From: Mycolicibacterium neworleansense
Lineage (GTDB): Bacteria > Actinomycetota > Actinomycetes > Mycobacteriales > Mycobacteriaceae
Direction: 5' to 3'
Length of the DNA: 64,000 bases
Assembly: GCF_001245615.1 (NCBI RefSeq)
Contig: NZ_CWKH01000003.1
Coordinates: 248,001 to 312,000, forward strand
Within the stretch, counting starts at the first letter, position 1; every line of letters begins with the position of its first letter. Made by a program: the position numbers and the translations under genes. Positions 32,028 through 55,342 of this stretch are shown piece by piece. The notes beneath the pieces were generated by a model that did no database searches, was not told the origin of the DNA, and saw nothing but the letters and a program-made list of their open reading frames with translations.

Positions 32028-33170
32028 TTAGACGCCGAGCTCGCGGCCGATGATCTCCTTCATGATCTCGGTGGTGCCACCGAAGATCGTCTGGATTCGT
32101 CCGTCCACGTAGGCGCGGGCGACGCGGTATTCCATCATGTAGCCGTAGCCGCCGTGCAGCTGCACGCACTGGTCGACGACCTTCTTGGCGACCTCGGTGG
32201 CCCACCACTTGGCCTTGGCCGCCTCGACGGCGGTCAGCTCACCGTCGACCACGCCCTGCAGGCAGCGGTCGAGGTAGTTCTCGGTGACCTCGAGCTCGGT
32301 CTCCATCTCGGCGAGCAGGAACCGGTTGTGCTGGAAGCTGCCGATCGGCTGGCCGAAGGCCTTGCGGTCCTTGGCGTATTGCAGCGTCTCCTGGAAGACC
32401 GCGCGCGCACCGTAGATCGCCGAGATGGCGATCCCGAGCCGCTCGGAGGGCAGGTTGGTCATCAGGTGGTAGAAACCACGACCTTCCTTGCCCAGCAGGT
32501 TGGCATTCGGCACGCGCACGTTCTCGAAGTGCAGCTCTGAGGTGTCCTGGCTGTGCAGGCCCATCTTGTCGAGCTTGCGGCCGCGGGTGAAGCCCTCCAT
32601 GCCCCGCTCCACCACGAACAGCGTGAAGCCCTTGTGGCCGGCCTCTGGATCGGTGCGGGCGACCACGACACACAGGTCGCAGTTGATGCCCGAAGAGATG
32701 AAGGTCTTGGAGCCGTTGATGATCCAGTCGTCACCGTCGCGCACCGCCGAGGTGCGGATGCCGGCCAGGTCGCTGCCCGCGCCCGGCTCGGTCATCGCGA
32801 TCGCGATGATCAGTTCGCCGTTGGTGATGCCGGGCATCCAGCGCTGCTTCTGCTCGTCGTTGGCCAGCTCCTTGAAGTAGGGGCCGACAACGTCGTTGTG
32901 CAGGCTCAGCGCCGGGCCGTGCACACCGGCCTTGGCGATCTCCTCATCGATGATCGCGTTGAACCGGAAGTCATCCGAGCCGCCGCCGCCGAACTCCTCT
33001 GGCATGTTGAAACCGATGAGGCCGTACTTGCCGGCAGCGGTGTACGCCGACCGGTCGACGATGCGCTCGGTCTCCCACTTCTCGGCGTTGGGCACGAGCT
33101 CGCGCTCGATGTACTCCTTGACCGTCTCACGGAACGCTTCGTGTTCTGCGGTATAGATCTGTCGCTTCAT
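32028..33170 (-). CDS. Acyl-CoA dehydrogenase (FadE, LCAD/IVD-like)
   Basis: 380 residues. FAD/acyl motifs AMTEPGAGSDLAGIRT and ISSGINCDLCVVVARTD, and the C-terminal QLHGGYGYMMEY region. The Glu of MCAD-type enzymes in IYEGT is Gly364 here (IFGGTTE), whereas Glu243 in LPSERL aligns with the catalytic base of long-chain and isovaleryl-CoA dehydrogenases. So it is likely active, with the alternative base position. It introduces the first double bond of an acyl-CoA. Last gene of the fadA-echA-fadE operon, three bases after echA. Confidence 0.9.
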   Translation of the reverse strand: MKRQIYTAEHEAFRETVKEYIERELVPNAEKWETERIVDRSAYTAAGKYGLIGFNMPEEFGGGGSDDFRFNAIIDEEIAKAGVHGPALSLHNDVVGPYFKELANDEQKQRWMPGITNGELIIAIAMTEPGAGSDLAGIRTSAVRDGDDWIINGSKTFISSGINCDLCVVVARTDPEAGHKGFTLFVVERGMEGFTRGRKLDKMGLHSQDTSELHFENVRVPNANLLGKEGRGFYHLMTNLPSERLGIAISAIYGARAVFQETLQYAKDRKAFGQPIGSFQHNRFLLAEMETELEVTENYLDRCLQGVVDGELTAVEAAKAKWWATEVAKKVVDQCVQLHGGYGYMMEYRVARAYVDGRIQTIFGGTTEIMKEIIGRELGV

Positions 33171-33173
33171 GTC

Positions 33174-33971
33174 TTACCTTGCCTTCCAAACAGGTTCGCG
33201 CTTCTGGGCGAAGGCCAGCGGCCCTTCCTTGGCGTCCTCGGTCTGCAGCAAGGTGCTGAACTCACGATTGGTGCGCTTCCAGCCATCCTTGTCGCCGGTG
33301 ATGACGCCCTCGTCGGCACCGTAGGCGACCCGCTTGCTGGCCTGCACGGCCAGCGGTGCGTTGCCGGTGATCCGTTCGGCCAACTTGAGTGCCGCGTCCA
33401 CGACGGTGCCGTCGGGCACCACCTGGTTGATCAGGCCCCAGCGGAGCGCGTCGGCCGACGACATCGGCTCACCGGTGAACAGCAGTTCGTTGGCCACCTT
33501 GCGGGGCAGCTGCTCGGCGATGCGGAAGACGCCGCCGGCACCGGCGATCAGGCCCCGCTTCACCTCCGGCAGACCGAATTTGGCGCTCTCCTCGGCCACG
33601 ATCAAGTCACTGGCCAGGGCCAGCTCGGTGCCGCCGCCCAGAGCGGTGCCGTTGACCGCGGCGATCGTCGGCTTGTCGATGAAATGGCTGACGTAGCCGG
33701 CGAATCCGTACTCCGGGTGCTCGGGGTGAAAGAGGTTCTCGCCCCGCGAGATCGCCTTCAGGTCGGCGCCGGCGCAGAACGACTTGTCGCCCGATCCGGT
33801 GATCACGACGACCCGGACCTCGGGATCGTTCTGGGCCTGCTCCAGCGCATCGCCGACGGCGGTGCTGACCGAGCCGTTGATCGCGTTGCGCGCCTCGGGC
33901 CGGTTGATCGTGATGAGCAGGACGTTGCCGCGCTTTTCAACAATCGCGCCGAGGGCGCCTTCGTCGGTCAC
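33174..33971 (-). CDS. Enoyl-CoA hydratase (crotonase)
   Basis: 265 residues. Oxyanion-hole segments KSFCAGADLK and AAVNGTALGGGTELALASD; both catalytic glutamates are present (GGTEL and GLPEVKRGL), so it should hydrate trans-2-enoyl-CoA. GTG at 33971 overlaps the thiolase stop by four bases, showing translational coupling. Middle gene of the fadA-echA-fadE operon. Contrast with the EchA10-like protein at 22710, which lacks both glutamates. Confidence 0.9.
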   Translation of the reverse strand: MTDEGALGAIVEKRGNVLLITINRPEARNAINGSVSTAVGDALEQAQNDPEVRVVVITGSGDKSFCAGADLKAISRGENLFHPEHPEYGFAGYVSHFIDKPTIAAVNGTALGGGTELALASDLIVAEESAKFGLPEVKRGLIAGAGGVFRIAEQLPRKVANELLFTGEPMSSADALRWGLINQVVPDGTVVDAALKLAERITGNAPLAVQASKRVAYGADEGVITGDKDGWKRTNREFSTLLQTEDAKEGPLAFAQKREPVWKAR

Positions 33972-35116
33972 AGGAGCTCCAGGATGGTCGCGTTGGCCTG
34001 GCCGCCACCTTCACACATGGTCTGCAGGCCGTACTGAATGTTGTTGTCCCGCATGTGGTACAGCAGCGTGGTCAGGATGCGGGCGCCGGAGCCGCCGAGC
34101 GGGTGGCCCAGGGCGATCGCGCCGCCGTTGGGGTTGAGCCGGCTCTCGTCGGCGCCGATGTCCTTGAGCCAGGCCATCGGAACCGGGGCGAACGCCTCGT
34201 TGACCTCGAACGCGCCGATCTGGTCGACGGTCAGGCCGGACTTGGCCAGCGCCTTCTGGGTGGCCGGGATCGGCGCGGTCAGCATGATGACCGGGTCGGC
34301 GCCGGCGAGCACCGCGGTGTGCACCTTCGCAAGCGGCTTGAGCCCCAGGTCTTTTGCCTTGTCGGCCGACATGATCAGCAGCGCGGCCGACCCGTCGGAG
34401 ATCTGACTGGAGTTACCGGCGTGGATCACGCCGTCTTCCTTGAAGGCCGGCTTGATGGCAGCCATGGATTCCACGGTGCCGCCGCGGCGGATGCCGCCGT
34501 CTTCCAGCACGACGTTGCCGTCTTGGTCCTTGATGCCGACGATCTGATCCTTGAACGCACCGGAATCCTGTGCGGCCGCGGCCTTCTCGTGCGAACGGAG
34601 GGAGAACTCGTCGAGCTGGGTGCGGGACAGCCCCCACTGCTCGGCGATCATCTCGGCGCCGACACCCTGGTTGGGGGTCTTGTGGTCGTAGCGCTCGCGG
34701 AAGGCCTCCGGGTAGGGGTGTCCGCCGTTGGCCAGCGAGGAGCCCATCGGCGTGCGCGACATCGACTCGACGCCACCGGCGACGACGACGTCGTAGTGGC
34801 CGGCGACCACGCCGGCGACGGCGAAGTGCAGGGACTGCTGGCTCGAACCGCACTGACGGTCGACCGTCACGCCCGGAACGGTCTCGGGCCAGCCGGCGGT
34901 AAGCACGGCGGTGCGGGCGATGTCCAGGGCCTGCTCACCGGCCTGCATGACGCAGCCCCAGATGACGTCGTCGACGAGGGCTGGGTCGATGCCGGCGCGC
35001 TCCACGAGGCCGTTGAGCACCTGGGCCGACAGATCCGAAGGGTGCACACCGGACAGGGCGCCGTTGCGCTTCCCGACTGGCGACCGGACGGCCTCGACGA
35101 TGACGGCTTCAGCCAT
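33968..35116 (-). CDS. Thiolase, acetyl-CoA C-acyltransferase (FadA)
   Basis: 382 residues. Nucleophile Cys89 in VDRQCGSSQQS, His338 in ALGHPLGGSG, Cys368 in TMCEGGG and NEAFAPV are the full thiolase set. Overall similarity is to the FadA6/FadA2 group. It cleaves 3-ketoacyl-CoA in the last step of beta-oxidation. First gene of the operon; together with echA and fadE it covers most of one beta-oxidation cycle, with no 3-hydroxyacyl-CoA dehydrogenase included. The operon faces a FadR-type regulator across a palindrome. Confidence 0.9.
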   Translation of the reverse strand: MAEAVIVEAVRSPVGKRNGALSGVHPSDLSAQVLNGLVERAGIDPALVDDVIWGCVMQAGEQALDIARTAVLTAGWPETVPGVTVDRQCGSSQQSLHFAVAGVVAGHYDVVVAGGVESMSRTPMGSSLANGGHPYPEAFRERYDHKTPNQGVGAEMIAEQWGLSRTQLDEFSLRSHEKAAAAQDSGAFKDQIVGIKDQDGNVVLEDGGIRRGGTVESMAAIKPAFKEDGVIHAGNSSQISDGSAALLIMSADKAKDLGLKPLAKVHTAVLAGADPVIMLTAPIPATQKALAKSGLTVDQIGAFEVNEAFAPVPMAWLKDIGADESRLNPNGGAIALGHPLGGSGARILTTLLYHMRDNNIQYGLQTMCEGGGQANATILELL

Positions 35117-35318: not shown

Positions 35319-36110
35319 GTGGCTCGAACCACACCACTGGCGCCGATGATCGGCCCTGACGCGATAGCACCGCAGGCGCCGGTCCGTTCCCCGAAGACCG
35401 CTGAACTCGTCGCAGGCACGTTGCGGCGCATGGTCGTCGACGGCCAGCTCAAAGAGGGCGACTTCCTGCCCAACGAAGCCGAGCTCATGGAGCATTTCGG
35501 GGTCAGCAGGCCGACGCTGCGGGAGGCCGTGCGGGTGCTGGAATCCGAGCGTCTGGTCGAGGTCCGGCGCGGCTCCCGCACCGGGGCGCGCGTGCGCGTT
35601 CCCGGCCCCGAGATCGTCGCCCGCCCGGCCGGCCTGCTGCTCGAGCTCTCCGGCGCCGATATCGCCGACCTGTTGGTGGGGCGTGCCGCGATCGAACCGA
35701 TGGCCGCACGCCTGCTGGCCGAGAAGGGTGACGAGGCGGCGATCGCCGAACTGGAACAGATGCTCGACGAGCACATCCCGACCGACCACCAGTCGGACCG
35801 GCTGGCCGAGACCACCGGCGATTTCCACCGCCGCGTCGTGGAGCTGTCGGGCAACGCCACCCTCGGCATCATCGCCGGCATGCTGCACGAGATCACCGTG
35901 CGCCACCACGCCTTCCTGTTCAAAGAGCGCCGGCCGGTTTCCAAGACCGACTATGAAAAGTTGATGCGGTCCTACCGCAAACTGATCCAGATCATCCGCT
36001 CCGGTGACGGCGACGCCGCCGAGGCTCATTGGCGCAAGCATCTCGACACCGCGCGCATCCTGATGCTGCAGGACATCGAGAGCGTCAAGGTCCGCGACGT
36101 CATGCGCTGA
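35319..36110 (+). CDS. GntR-family regulator, FadR/FCD subfamily
   Basis: 263 residues. Winged helix at about residues 24-95 (TLRRMVVDGQLKEGDFLPNE, HFGVSRPTLREAVRVLES). The alpha-helical FCD domain shows the metal-binding pattern with GDFHRRVVELSGN and HEITVRHH. FCD proteins sense carboxylic acids or acyl-CoA. GTG at 35319 is used. Its place opposite the fadA-echA-fadE operon suggests that it represses the operon until a fatty-acid-derived ligand appears. Confidence 0.88.
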   Translation: MARTTPLAPMIGPDAIAPQAPVRSPKTAELVAGTLRRMVVDGQLKEGDFLPNEAELMEHFGVSRPTLREAVRVLESERLVEVRRGSRTGARVRVPGPEIVARPAGLLLELSGADIADLLVGRAAIEPMAARLLAEKGDEAAIAELEQMLDEHIPTDHQSDRLAETTGDFHRRVVELSGNATLGIIAGMLHEITVRHHAFLFKERRPVSKTDYEKLMRSYRKLIQIIRSGDGDAAEAHWRKHLDTARILMLQDIESVKVRDVMR

Positions 36111-36222: not shown

Positions 36223-36606
36223 CTAGTCCGGCCACACCGCCAGCCGCGTATCGGTATCGCGCCAACCGTCACCGGTCTTCCACCGCATCGGCAGCAGCCG
36301 GTAGCGCCAGCTGCCGGCCGGTCCGTGCGGGCCCACATGATCGACCGTGATCGAGATCAGGTCGGCGTCAAGCTGTTTGGCGTGTGTCTCCAGGTAGATG
36401 CCGGCCTCGTCGTCGAGCTCCGACATCAACTCACCGAACAGCAGCCGCGGCCCCGGCGCCCGATGCAGCAGGACGCATTGCGGCCGCTCCGGACAGTGCC
36501 CGGCCCGGACGGAGACGTGACATTGCGTGTCGACGCCGCCCAGGTCGCTCATCAACCGCCCGGACTCGTCGACCCATACCGCGACCGGTTCAGATGGTGG
36601 CGTCAT
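36223..36606 (-). CDS. Conserved-looking hypothetical protein, 127 residues
   Basis: Starts MTPPSEPVAVWVDESGRLMS and contains VSVRAGHCPERPQCVLLHRA and DADLISITVDHVGPHGPAGSW. It appears soluble and mixed alpha/beta; no family recognised. The start lies 17 bases inside the end of the DUF3556 gene on the same strand, so it is probably cotranscribed and translationally coupled to that gene, and would share its KstR box. A start four codons earlier (36618) is also possible. Confidence 0.6.
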   Translation of the reverse strand: MTPPSEPVAVWVDESGRLMSDLGGVDTQCHVSVRAGHCPERPQCVLLHRAPGPRLLFGELMSELDDEAGIYLETHAKQLDADLISITVDHVGPHGPAGSWRYRLLPMRWKTGDGWRDTDTRLAVWPD

Positions 36607-38323
36607 CTCGCTGGACATGGACCGGCAGTTCGTCGTCCCAGGGCTGGCGCGTGACCATGTCGGCCACGTTGACGTAGCCCCGCTCGAACTCTCCGGTGGC
36701 CGCGTCGACGAGCCGGTACTGCTGGGTCTGGCGCTGGATCGGCTGAGCGTCGAGCATGACGATCCGCACCTCCCCCGGCTCGAAATGGCACCTCTTCTGC
36801 AGGGCGGCCACAAGTTGTTCGTTGCTCATGTGCCCGTCACCGAAGTTCCAGCCGATGGCCGTGGAGACGATCCGCTCGCCATCGGTCAGCACGTAGTCGT
36901 CCTCGTTCTGGCCGGCCATCGCCCGGTGCGCCAGGGTGAACAGGGCCCGGCCGTGAGAGTTGAAGCCCCGGAACGCATATCCCATGTACAGGTACATCTG
37001 GGCGATCTCGGGGCTGCCGTAGTACCGCTCCATCTGGGCGGCAGGCATGCTGGCGATCGCGACGATGTTCTTCTCGATCTTCTCCGCGGCCGAGGGCTTG
37101 ACGCACCACAGCGAGGTGTCCCAGTTGCCGGCGTAGTACCGCATGCCGGGCAGGAAGGAGATCTTGCGCGGGAACAGGTTTCCCAGCACCACGGTGCCCG
37201 CGACCACTGCGAACAACACGATCGGCCATGGGCTGCCCAGATCCCCCAGTCCGATCCCGGGGTGCCCGACGAACAGGGCCAGCACGGAGAACATCATGAA
37301 GACGTTCCATTCCAGCGGCACGCCCATCGGGATGGCGCTCAGGATGCCGAAGTGGAACACCAGCATCACAAAGGCAGCGCAGGCCGTCACCCAGCCGCCA
37401 TGGGAGAAGAAGAGCACCAGCGGCACCAAACCCTCGATCACAGTGGAGAAGTGGGCCACGAAGCGTGACGGACGCCCGGGCCGCAGGTCGTCCGGGAAGT
37501 GCTCGAAGAACTTCCGCTTGATCCAGCGAGGCCGGAACACGGGGTTGTTGCTCATCATCGTCGAGATGACGAACGGGAAATGTTTGGTGAGCTTGGAGGC
37601 CGCCGCGCCGATCCAGATGGTCAGACAGATCAGCTTGGCCGCGATGACGATGTCGGCACCGCTGAACAGGAAGCAGACCGCCAGCGAGCCGTAGACCTCG
37701 CCCCGGGCGGCCAGGAAGATCACCTTGTCGCGCAGGCCGGCCAGGGCGAGCAGGCCGACGATCGCCGCGGTCTGCCACACCGGGAGCACGCCGATCTCGC
37801 TGCCGAGGGCCGGGATCGGGCCGGTGCCGTCGGATGCCAGCGCCACCACCAACATCACCAGCAGCGCCGCGTACAGCGCGACATCGACGACGGTGCGGCT
37901 GTCACCCTTGGTCAGCGGCACCCGCTCAGGCCACGGTGGCAGGCGAATCGTCTTGGGCCGCAACCAGTAGAGGATCGATCCCATGGGCGGGAAGAACCGG
38001 TTGTTGAGCGGACCGAATCCGCAGCCGAGGCCGATGACCTCGAACAGCATCGTGTAGAACACGACCTTCTGGTAGACGATCGGCTCGGCGTACCAGGAGG
38101 CGACGTTGGTGAATCCGTCGACGCCGTCAGTGGTGAGCGCGATCAACCAGGCACCGAGAATGTACGCCAGGATCTTGACGACGTAGAACAGGTGCAGCGC
38201 CACCGGAGTCCCGAAGCCGACCTCGGCCCAGTGCCGCGCCATCGGCTGGATCTTCTCCGCGCGGGTGCCCTTGCTCCACTGCTCGAAGTCGATCTGGGGA
38301 GATTCCTGTTTGAGAAAACCCAT
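36590..38323 (-). CDS. DUF3556 membrane protein
   Basis: 577 residues with about ten hydrophobic helices between residues 40 and 400 and a cytosolic C-terminal region. MGFLKQESPQIDFEQWSKGT and RPKTIRLPPWPERVPLTKGD fit the actinobacterial DUF3556 family, whose members have this length. Function unknown. A consensus KstR box lies 12 bases upstream of its ATG, which suggests expression during cholesterol or other sterol use and a role in sterol or lipid handling at the membrane. That role is inferred only from the box. Confidence 0.8.
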   Translation of the reverse strand: MGFLKQESPQIDFEQWSKGTRAEKIQPMARHWAEVGFGTPVALHLFYVVKILAYILGAWLIALTTDGVDGFTNVASWYAEPIVYQKVVFYTMLFEVIGLGCGFGPLNNRFFPPMGSILYWLRPKTIRLPPWPERVPLTKGDSRTVVDVALYAALLVMLVVALASDGTGPIPALGSEIGVLPVWQTAAIVGLLALAGLRDKVIFLAARGEVYGSLAVCFLFSGADIVIAAKLICLTIWIGAAASKLTKHFPFVISTMMSNNPVFRPRWIKRKFFEHFPDDLRPGRPSRFVAHFSTVIEGLVPLVLFFSHGGWVTACAAFVMLVFHFGILSAIPMGVPLEWNVFMMFSVLALFVGHPGIGLGDLGSPWPIVLFAVVAGTVVLGNLFPRKISFLPGMRYYAGNWDTSLWCVKPSAAEKIEKNIVAIASMPAAQMERYYGSPEIAQMYLYMGYAFRGFNSHGRALFTLAHRAMAGQNEDDYVLTDGERIVSTAIGWNFGDGHMSNEQLVAALQKRCHFEPGEVRIVMLDAQPIQRQTQQYRLVDAATGEFERGYVNVADMVTRQPWDDELPVHVQRDDATI

Positions 38324-38334
38324 GCCGGTCAGAT

Positions 38335-38348
38335 TAGAACGTGTTCTA
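38335..38348. promoter_or_regulatory. KstR-box match upstream of the DUF3556 gene
   Basis: TAGAACGTGTTCTA fits the published KstR consensus TnnAACnnGTTnnA at every fixed position and is palindromic with 6-base arms. It lies 12 bases before the DUF3556 start, where a repressor would block the promoter. KstR controls cholesterol catabolism in mycobacteria. Confidence 0.7.
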
Positions 38349-38403
38349 GTCCGGTGGTAGTCGTTCTGACCGGCAAGTGGTCGTCATTCTCGGCAGGCAG
38401 GTA

Positions 38404-38925
38404 CTACGACTTCACCGGCGGGCGGAAGAAGATCGCCAGCTGGCCGATGCCGCCGAGAAGACCCAGCACCACCGCGATCGCCAGGCCGTACCAGCCGTGC
38501 AGCAGATCGTAGAAGCCACAGTTGGAGAACAGCAGGTGGTCAAGGCTGTAGCGACCGGCGCCGGTACCGGCGATCGCCACCGCGGCCACCGCCAGGATCA
38601 GGTTGTACTCCCAGCCTTCCTTGACGATGAAGAACCCGTTGCGCCGGTGCACGGTCCAGGCCGCGACCAGCATCAGTGCCACGAACCCCGCCGCGGGCAC
38701 GGGGGTGAGCAGGCCGAGGGCCAGACCGAGACCGGCGGCGATCTCGGTGCTGGCCGCGACCCGGGCGTGGAACAGGCCCGGCTTCATGCCGATGCTGTCG
38801 AACCATCCCGCGGTGCCGGGGATCCGTCCCCCACCGAAGAACTTGTTGTAGCCGTGAGCGGCCATGGTCAGGCCGAGCACCACGCGCAGGAGCAGGATCG
38901 CAGTGTCGTAAGCGGAGGAAGCCAT
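38404..38925 (-). CDS. DoxX-family membrane protein
   Basis: 173 residues with four hydrophobic helices. TAILLLRVVLGLTMAAHGYN and KFFGGGRIPGTAGWFDSIGM are classic DoxX features. ATG at 38925 follows an operator-like palindrome directly upstream, so it probably has its own promoter although the SDR gene lies 22 bases upstream on the same strand. May take part in a membrane redox or thiol-stress system; no partner genes adjacent. Confidence 0.85.
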   Translation of the reverse strand: MASSAYDTAILLLRVVLGLTMAAHGYNKFFGGGRIPGTAGWFDSIGMKPGLFHARVAASTEIAAGLGLALGLLTPVPAAGFVALMLVAAWTVHRRNGFFIVKEGWEYNLILAVAAVAIAGTGAGRYSLDHLLFSNCGFYDLLHGWYGLAIAVVLGLLGGIGQLAIFFRPPVKS

Positions 38926-54193: not shown

Positions 54194-54227
54194 TCCAGCA
54201 ACCATTTTTGCTGATCAAGCTCGAAAC

Positions 54228-54241
54228 TGGAACCTGTTTCA
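54228..54241. promoter_or_regulatory. KstR-box match upstream of 3-beta-HSD
   Basis: TGGAACCTGTTTCA fits the KstR consensus TnnAACnnGTTnnA at every fixed position. It sits in the 51 bases between xseB and the 3-beta-HSD gene. Rv1106c is a reported member of the KstR regulon in M. tuberculosis, which supports the site. Confidence 0.75.
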
Positions 54242-54256
54242 GTTATGCTGCCCGTC

Positions 54257-55342
54257 ATGGGTGACGCATCTTTGACCACCGACCTCGGCCGTGTTCTGGT
54301 GACCGGGGGCTCCGGCTTCGTCGGCGCCAACCTGGTGAACGAACTGCTCGACCGCGGATACGCGGTGCGGTCATTCGACCGAGTGCCCTCGCCGGTGGGC
54401 GATCACGCCGGCCTGGAGGTCATCGAGGGCGACATCTGCGACCAGCAGACCGTCGCCGCGGCCGTCAAGGACATCGACACGATCATCCACACCGCGGCGA
54501 TCATCGACCTGATGGGCGGCGCCTCGGTCACCGACGAGTACCGGCAGCGCAGCTTCGCGGTCAACGTGGAGGGCACCAAGAACCTCGTCCACGCGGCCCA
54601 GCAGGCGGGCGTCAAGCGCTTCGTCTACACCGCTTCCAACAGCGTGGTGATGGGCGGACAGGACATCGTCAACGGTGACGAGACCATGCCCTACACCGCC
54701 CGGTTCAACGACCTCTACACCGAGACCAAGGTGGTCGCCGAGAAGTTCGTCCTCGCTGAGAACGGCAAGCACGACATGCTGACGTGCGCGATCCGTCCCA
54801 GCGGTATCTGGGGCCGCGGCGACCAGACCATGTTCCGCAAGGTGTTCGAGAACGTGCTCGCCGGCCACGTCAAGGTGCTCGTCGGCAACAAGAACATCAA
54901 GCTCGACAACTCCTACGTGCACAACCTGATCCACGGATTCATCCTGGCCGGCCAGCACCTGGTCCCCGGTGGCACCGCCCCCGGACAGGCCTACTTCATC
55001 AACGACGGCGAGCCGATCAACATGTTCGAGTTCGCCCGCCCGGTGATTGCCGCCTGCGGCCGCAAGCTGCCGACGTTCTATGTGTCAGGCCGCCTGGTGC
55101 ACAAGGTGATGATGGCCTGGCAGTGGCTGCACTTCCGGTTCGCCCTGCCCGAGCCGTTGATCGAACCGCTTGCGGTGGAACGGCTTTACCTCAACAACTA
55201 CTTCTCGATCGCCAAGGCCCGCCGCGACCTCGGCTATGAGCCGTTGTTCACGACCCAGCAGGCCATGGCCGAGTGCATGCCCTACTACGTCGACCTGTTC
55301 CGCCAGATGGAGTCCGGCACCAAGCAGTCCGTCACCGCGTGA
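54257..55342 (+). CDS. 3-beta-hydroxysteroid dehydrogenase / cholesterol dehydrogenase (Rv1106c-like)
   Basis: 361 residues. Extended SDR: VTGGSGFVGANLVNELLDRG (NAD binding), HTAAIIDLMGG and active-site YTETK. IRPSGIWGRGDQTMFRKVFE and DNSYVHNLIHGFILAG match the mycobacterial 3-beta-HSD that oxidises cholesterol to cholest-4-en-3-one, starting sterol degradation. ATG 54257 is preferred over ATG 54245 because the KstR box ends only 3 bases before the latter. Either is possible; M. tuberculosis annotation uses the longer form. Confidence 0.92.
   Translation: MGDASLTTDLGRVLVTGGSGFVGANLVNELLDRGYAVRSFDRVPSPVGDHAGLEVIEGDICDQQTVAAAVKDIDTIIHTAAIIDLMGGASVTDEYRQRSFAVNVEGTKNLVHAAQQAGVKRFVYTASNSVVMGGQDIVNGDETMPYTARFNDLYTETKVVAEKFVLAENGKHDMLTCAIRPSGIWGRGDQTMFRKVFENVLAGHVKVLVGNKNIKLDNSYVHNLIHGFILAGQHLVPGGTAPGQAYFINDGEPINMFEFARPVIAACGRKLPTFYVSGRLVHKVMMAWQWLHFRFALPEPLIEPLAVERLYLNNYFSIAKARRDLGYEPLFTTQQAMAECMPYYVDLFRQMESGTKQSVTA

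Follow-up and report, generated by a model that had tools for sequence, protein, structure and literature searches.

A KstR-type operator was identified directly before the gene for a DUF3556 membrane protein in a stretch of 64,000 nucleotides of Mycolicibacterium neworleansense (contig NZ_CWKH01000003.1, positions 248,001 to 312,000; the whole stretch is called the window below). The window is located in contig 3 (C3) of the 6.29 Mb source genome (G000). The box most probably works as a KstR operator, which would place the DUF3556 gene in the mycobacterial cholesterol regulon. A transmembrane family of otherwise uncharacterised role would thereby be tied to mycobacterial sterol use through a strong and conserved operator, and the orthologue group concerned is named here. 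Sterol-transforming mycobacteria are used in industry, and an unassigned member of the regulon is worth knowing. The features of the promoter region are as follows.

38335..38348, minus strand: KstR-type operator with the 14-bp core TAGAACGTGTTCTA (TAGAACACGTTCTA on the gene strand); the 18-bp match spans 38333-38350
38331..38336, minus strand: predicted -10 element TAATCT, which overlaps the box at its edge and is followed by the ATG after 7 bp
36590..38323, minus strand: DUF3556 membrane protein of 577 residues (PF12077, 933 bits), with a probable distant HTTM/GGCX-like fold

Identification of the operator

The consensus KstR box that the initial annotation had placed before the DUF3556 gene was found exactly at 38335-38348, and 11 bases separate it from the ATG (38323-38321, minus strand). 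It had been described as palindromic. This is correct for the arms, TAGAAC and GTTCTA, which form a perfect inverted repeat, and not for the two central bases GT, which are not self-complementary. The box of KstR2 is AnCAAGnnCTTGnT, and the site read in the window is of the KstR type.

Sites were scored with a symmetrised KstR matrix of 18 positions, built from 42 sites of Table 3 in Kendall 2007 (PMC1995591), with the MSMEG_5202 site left out. The window box reached 30.9 bits, the 42 training sites spanning 18.1-31.0. The second and third best positions of the window scored 24.5 and 11.2 bits, and the top score over 20 mononucleotide shuffles of the window was 16.4 bits. The loose consensus TNNAACNNGTTNNA gave 75 sites in the source genome compared to 29 for the reversed pattern, and would by itself be poor evidence for a KstR site; for TNNAACRYGTTNNA the numbers were 37 and 5.

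Conservation of the operator

A search of 60 genomes from the genus, with G000 among them, found PF12077 in 58, at 110 places. Of these, 102 were fetched, the eight omitted ones being fragments. Orthologues were chosen by identity and not by the presence of a box, giving 56 of the 102 genes, one per genome in 56 of the 60 genomes, with 71.3-100% identity to the window protein (the next gene had 68.6%). A strong box (at least 18 bits), with the core ending 10-12 bp before the start codon, was present in 51 of the 56 orthologues. The box had been expected upstream of orthologues if the initial annotation was right, and in this respect the sequence bore it out. No strong box was found before any of the 46 other DUF3556 genes. 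Outside the promoters concerned, the same loci comprise 527,236 positions, none of which holds a site of 18 bits, and column-permuted matrices gave 0-3 sites per run on these loci in 20 runs.

A box without regulatory effect, either an evolutionary leftover or a chance match, could explain why two orthologues are boxless and three carry decayed sites while KstR persists in those genomes. It would leave unexplained that 51 of the 56 keep the box at nearly constant distance while the flanking bases vary, and that neither the other DUF3556 genes nor the rest of the loci contain such sites. This explanation is considered highly improbable, and a working operator is preferred.

Several observations weigh against a working operator. 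The decayed sites stand at the same place as the strong ones and score 15.3 (L013), 13.6 (L114) and 5.5 bits (L012), the last being distinguishable from background by its place alone, and no box was found in L120 and L129. All five genomes with a decayed or missing box keep KstR above the NCBIfam cut-off. Outside the genus the site was seen in only one of 26 loci (L184, 22.6 bits, with a gap of 27). In the available part of Kendall 2007 (PMC1995591), derepression is given for 26 of 31 M. smegmatis motifs, a count that is not tied to MSMEG_5202, and a Rv0223c probe with a predicted box was unbound in gel shift; the motif is therefore not proof of binding.

In a FastTree tree the 56 orthologues were not resolved as a single clade; 38 of the 125 inner branches were weak, and long-branch warnings were given. 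A well-supported group of 13 boxless genes and some genes from other genera branched among the orthologues, and at least six changes of box state were required. In a survey of the wider family, DUF3556 was found in 39 of 81 genomes, four of the 81 being within the genus. This gave 27 new loci for scoring, one of which (L186) belonged to the genus and had been counted before; of the 26 non-genus loci, 10 had 63-76% identity to the window protein and the others were more distant. A class-wide sample contained DUF3556 in 15 of 148 genomes. In the samples examined, the box is a genus trait of one DUF3556 orthologue group.

The other mycobacterial DUF3556 proteins belong to the same Pfam family and share the invariant residues K244, E297 and H324 described below, but their genes lack the KstR box in 46 of 46 cases. 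They differ from the boxed group in regulation and perhaps in role too. Membership of the cholesterol regulon, as claimed for DUF3556 in the initial annotation, is from sequence very likely for the one orthologue group and does not extend to these 46 genes. The functional lead offered for the whole family is narrowed accordingly.

KstR and its sites in the source genome

The source genome encodes KstR (L223:2045-2797; NF033703, 339.8 bits, cut-off 280), and this TetR protein is matched by KstR chains of the PDB with E-values no higher than 6e-112. KstR-type sites were also seen beside kstR and fadA5 in this genome. The site between kstR and the gene for a 640-residue acyl-CoA dehydrogenase scored 30.9 bits, equal to the window box. 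The steroid thiolase FadA5, whose gene is preceded by a site, scored 733.7 bits (NCBIfam cut-off 515); KstR and FadA5 were the only named sterol genes above NCBIfam cut-offs beside sites. Further sites are located beside genes that we take to be fadE34, kshA, echA19 and fadE26, and several more precede genes of no assigned identity. Separately, at locus L035, a 30.9-bit KstR-type site precedes a LipL/beta-lactamase-like esterase gene (L035:1837-2991; 169.7 bits, cut-off of 650 not reached).

Throughout the genus, KstR was found above the NCBIfam cut-off in 58 of the 60 genomes. The remaining two are G007, whose 264-bit piece lies at the end of a contig, and G052, with 198 bits in a genome that is 87% complete; the G052 orthologue (L027) has a 29.8-bit box despite the 198-bit KstR match. 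Co-loss of KstR and box was uninformative as a test, given the persistence of KstR, also in the box-poor genomes.

The conserved box could be real and yet be read by another TetR-type repressor, such as a second KstR-like protein, and answer to some lipid signal that is not cholesterol. The source genome carries a second KstR-like TetR gene with a weaker match (G000 C2:1628568-1629098; 159 bits, below the cut-off of 280), as do at least 18 others, which makes at least 19 of the 60 genomes (E 1e-40, up to 45 candidates scored in each genome). A membrane protein of R. opacus, 67% identical to a DUF3556 protein, was up on polyethylene (PMC8556283), suggesting that relatives can answer other lipids. 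On the other side, the same kind of site stands beside kstR itself and fadA5 in the source genome, the genome-wide list has no TNNAACNNGTTNNA match within 100 kb of the KstR-like paralogue, and genomes with no second KstR-like gene among the matches listed keep the box as well. Control by another repressor is thus unlikely, and KstR remains the preferred regulator of the DUF3556 gene.

A second KstR-type site is present in the window:

54226..54243, plus strand: KstR-type site of 24.5 bits, directly before the open reading frame (ORF) 54245-55342

This ORF scored above no NCBIfam cut-off. Its product is presumably 3beta-hydroxysteroid dehydrogenase (3beta-HSD)-like and the likely counterpart of MSMEG_5228. 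For MSMEG_5228, the site ACTGGAACGTGTTTCAGTTA is listed in the available part of Kendall 2007 (PMC1995591), and the gene is named 3beta-HSD in PMC4881515. A third KstR-type site, TGCAACACGTTCTA, was seen 400 bp beyond the end of the window (G000:C3:312400-312413, L211). It scored 20.0 bits, its core equals that of the published MSMEG_5232/5233 site, and the ORF beside it reads as NAD-dependent oxidoreductase-like.

Promoter and proposed mode of regulation

All 53 promoters that were aligned, namely those of the 51 orthologues with a strong box, L013 and L114, contain a TANNNT hexamer that starts within the box edge and stops 4-9 bp short of the start codon. The TA is itself part of the box, leaving only the final T as independent, and the overlap with the box edge is no more than suggestive of a promoter element.

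What the sequences show directly is a strong, conserved and constantly placed site together with a KstR gene; binding, repression and induction are inferred, and so are the transcript start and the biochemical function. A KstR dimer would cover the -10 element at its upstream edge and block RNA polymerase. An early product of sterol breakdown would bind KstR, which would then release the operator; PMC4881515 gives 3-oxo-4-cholestenoic acid as the KstR inducer. After release, the gene for the membrane protein would be transcribed into a short mRNA, probably a leaderless one. The spacing from the -10 element to the ATG is short, and the transcript is therefore predicted to begin with the ATG or right beside it.

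Fold of the DUF3556 protein

DUF3556 is a polytopic membrane protein, probably distantly related to the HTTM/GGCX fold. The predicted structure of DUF3556 matched human gamma-glutamyl carboxylase (GGCX) clearly above every other fold, with 16 GGCX entries among the structure matches (e.g. 9wfc and 9bvq) at 10-13% identity, and it showed a GGCX-type fold in the test applied to it. This likeness, based on a model, is the most interesting new lead, and the structure match is new here. One would not expect the cholesterol regulon to include a GGCX-fold membrane protein.

Other results speak against such a relationship. The Foldseek E-value for GGCX was only 8.5e-3, and the DUF3556 protein had no sequence match in the PDB. 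A Pfam search up to E 10 gave DUF3556 as the one match and no HTTM (PF05090), in a setting where the HMMER filters drop most weak matches. The first profile comparison with HTTM, in which A1 and A2 were compared at full length, failed with Prob 0.3. In favour of the relationship, widened profiles cut at 60-405 and 20-300 so as to keep the membrane part, a choice made after the failure at whole length, gave a score of 34.2, an E-value of 5e-4 and a Prob of 31%. This comparison outscored all controls run, which used the same widened and cut profiles.

K244 and H324, and also E297, were invariant in 489 of 489 DUF3556 rows. In the profile alignment K244 and H324 are paired with a lysine present in 30 of 31 and a histidine present in 31 of 31 sequences of the HTTM core. 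K244 and H324 thus become candidate active residues, near which lie E297 and R207-G208-E209, and the likeness also suggests a class of chemistry. The RGE of DUF3556 stands opposite the NNH motif of GGCX, in a stretch that is aligned with low confidence. The histidine of that motif, which we take to be His160, has no counterpart there, and five of ten bacterial HTTM proteins have SGD at this place.

At the level of a guess, the boxed DUF3556 protein could be a membrane enzyme, and not a transporter, with a lipid or quinol as cofactor and a lipophilic substrate in sterol use. A more specific proposal, speculative and on balance unlikely, would make DUF3556 a divergent branch of the HTTM/GGCX superfamily and its KstR-controlled member a quinol-dependent membrane enzyme that takes part in the sterol catabolism of mycobacteria, with a lipid derived from sterol or related to propionate as substrate. 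If true, such an enzyme would add to a well-studied pathway a chemical step that had gone unrecognised. Also less likely than not is a role as a helper in sterol or lipid uptake or export. The likeness to GGCX would then reflect a common arrangement of helical bundles, as the modest Foldseek E-value would allow, while the invariant lysine and histidine fit better with an enzyme. Both roles are compatible with the operator.

Neighbouring genes

The genes around the operator are listed below.

32028..35116, minus strand: thiolase, enoyl-CoA hydratase and acyl-CoA dehydrogenase genes (NCBIfam matches; thiolase TIGR01930, 445.9 bits, cut-off 240.55)
35319..36110, plus strand: GntR/FCD (FadR-type) regulator, convergent with DUF3556 (PF00392/PF07729), the MSMEG_5201 counterpart by gene order
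36223..36606, minus strand: poorly conserved ORF of 127 residues, overlapping the end of DUF3556 by 17 bp
38404..38925, minus strand: DoxX-family membrane protein, upstream of DUF3556 (PF07681, 80.3 bits)

The 127-residue ORF had zero Pfam or NCBIfam matches. It had been proposed as coupled to DUF3556 in the regulon. By tblastn over the 56 orthologue loci it was found in full length only at the window's own locus and in L004, and L111 held a piece of 29 residues. It was dropped as a conserved partner, being complete beside only two of 56 orthologues, and probably does not belong to the DUF3556 unit. Among 48 named loci, tblastn located it in L088, L093 and L094, and partially at the edge of L070.

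In the flanks fetched, a DoxX-type gene stands next to the orthologue at 23 of the 56 loci. The operator lies 55 bp past its stop codon, and DUF3556 therefore probably has its own promoter, separate from the DoxX-type gene. The latter is not favoured as an operon mate, the box and the -10 element falling between both genes. Its sole NCBIfam match was the HvfX copper-RiPP maturation family, at 56.6 bits, below the cut-off of 80.

The thiolase is the MSMEG_5199 counterpart by gene order. The window's 15 best positions by the KstR matrix all fall outside the set at 32028..35116. In 31 of the 56 orthologue loci the fetched flank contained a neighbour of the thiolase, GntR or DoxX type. Among the remaining 25, 10 (10 of 56 overall) had prpD or prpC of the methylcitrate cycle in the flank. 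In L224 the order is prpD-prpB-prpC, followed by DUF3556 about 1.2 kb on, with all three prp proteins above NCBIfam cut-offs. Orthologues near methylcitrate-cycle genes were noted in L224 and L226, and also in L008, L009, L010, L012, L014, L015, L018, L020, L022 and L114. Breakdown of the sterol side chain yields propionyl-CoA, and the prp neighbourhood therefore points to sterol use too.

Comparison with published KstR sites

The initial annotation regarded its proposal as a first functional lead, but the corresponding M. smegmatis site had already been printed. Table 3 of Kendall 2007 (PMC1995591) lists ATTAGAACGTGTTCTAGTCG before MSMEG_5202, with reverse-transcription quantitative PCR given as "not determined". 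In its available part that paper names no DUF3556, and the site is printed without annotation. MSMEG_5201 is a FadR-type GntR regulator (PMC2018728) and MSMEG_5199 an acetyl-CoA acetyltransferase (PMC5430705). The published order of sites (5202, 5228, 5232/5233) matches that of the window sites at 38335 and 54226 and the site 400 bp past its end. Because both the gene order and the order of the three sites match the window, MSMEG_5202 is very probably DUF3556.

Within the set of papers searched in full text, DUF3556 occurs in one only, PMC8556283, and MSMEG_5202 in Kendall 2007 only. The available parts of PMC10398937, PMC3068626 and PMC5270728 added nothing on the DUF3556 gene. In a sterol-using mycobacterium, KstR sites are described before 57 operons, 43 of them with induced genes (PMC6593523).

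The 20-mer ATTAGAACGTGTTCTAGTCS alone is not diagnostic of DUF3556. Of its 48 exact matches in named genomes, DUF3556 lies behind 10 and another gene, of 405 residues (that of L213), behind 12 (L060, L061, L063-L065, L073, L078, L084, L090-L092 and L098), leaving 26 unassigned.

In M. tuberculosis, none of the 16 entries in the available part of Kendall 2007 is marked as an orthologue of MSMEG_5202. The MSMEG_5202 site of M. smegmatis differs from the window site by one base over 20, with the same 14-bp core and flanks. The predicted arrangement of the promoter would also resemble a known case, the box of kstR being reported in Kendall 2007 (PMC1995591) to overlap partly with its -10 element.
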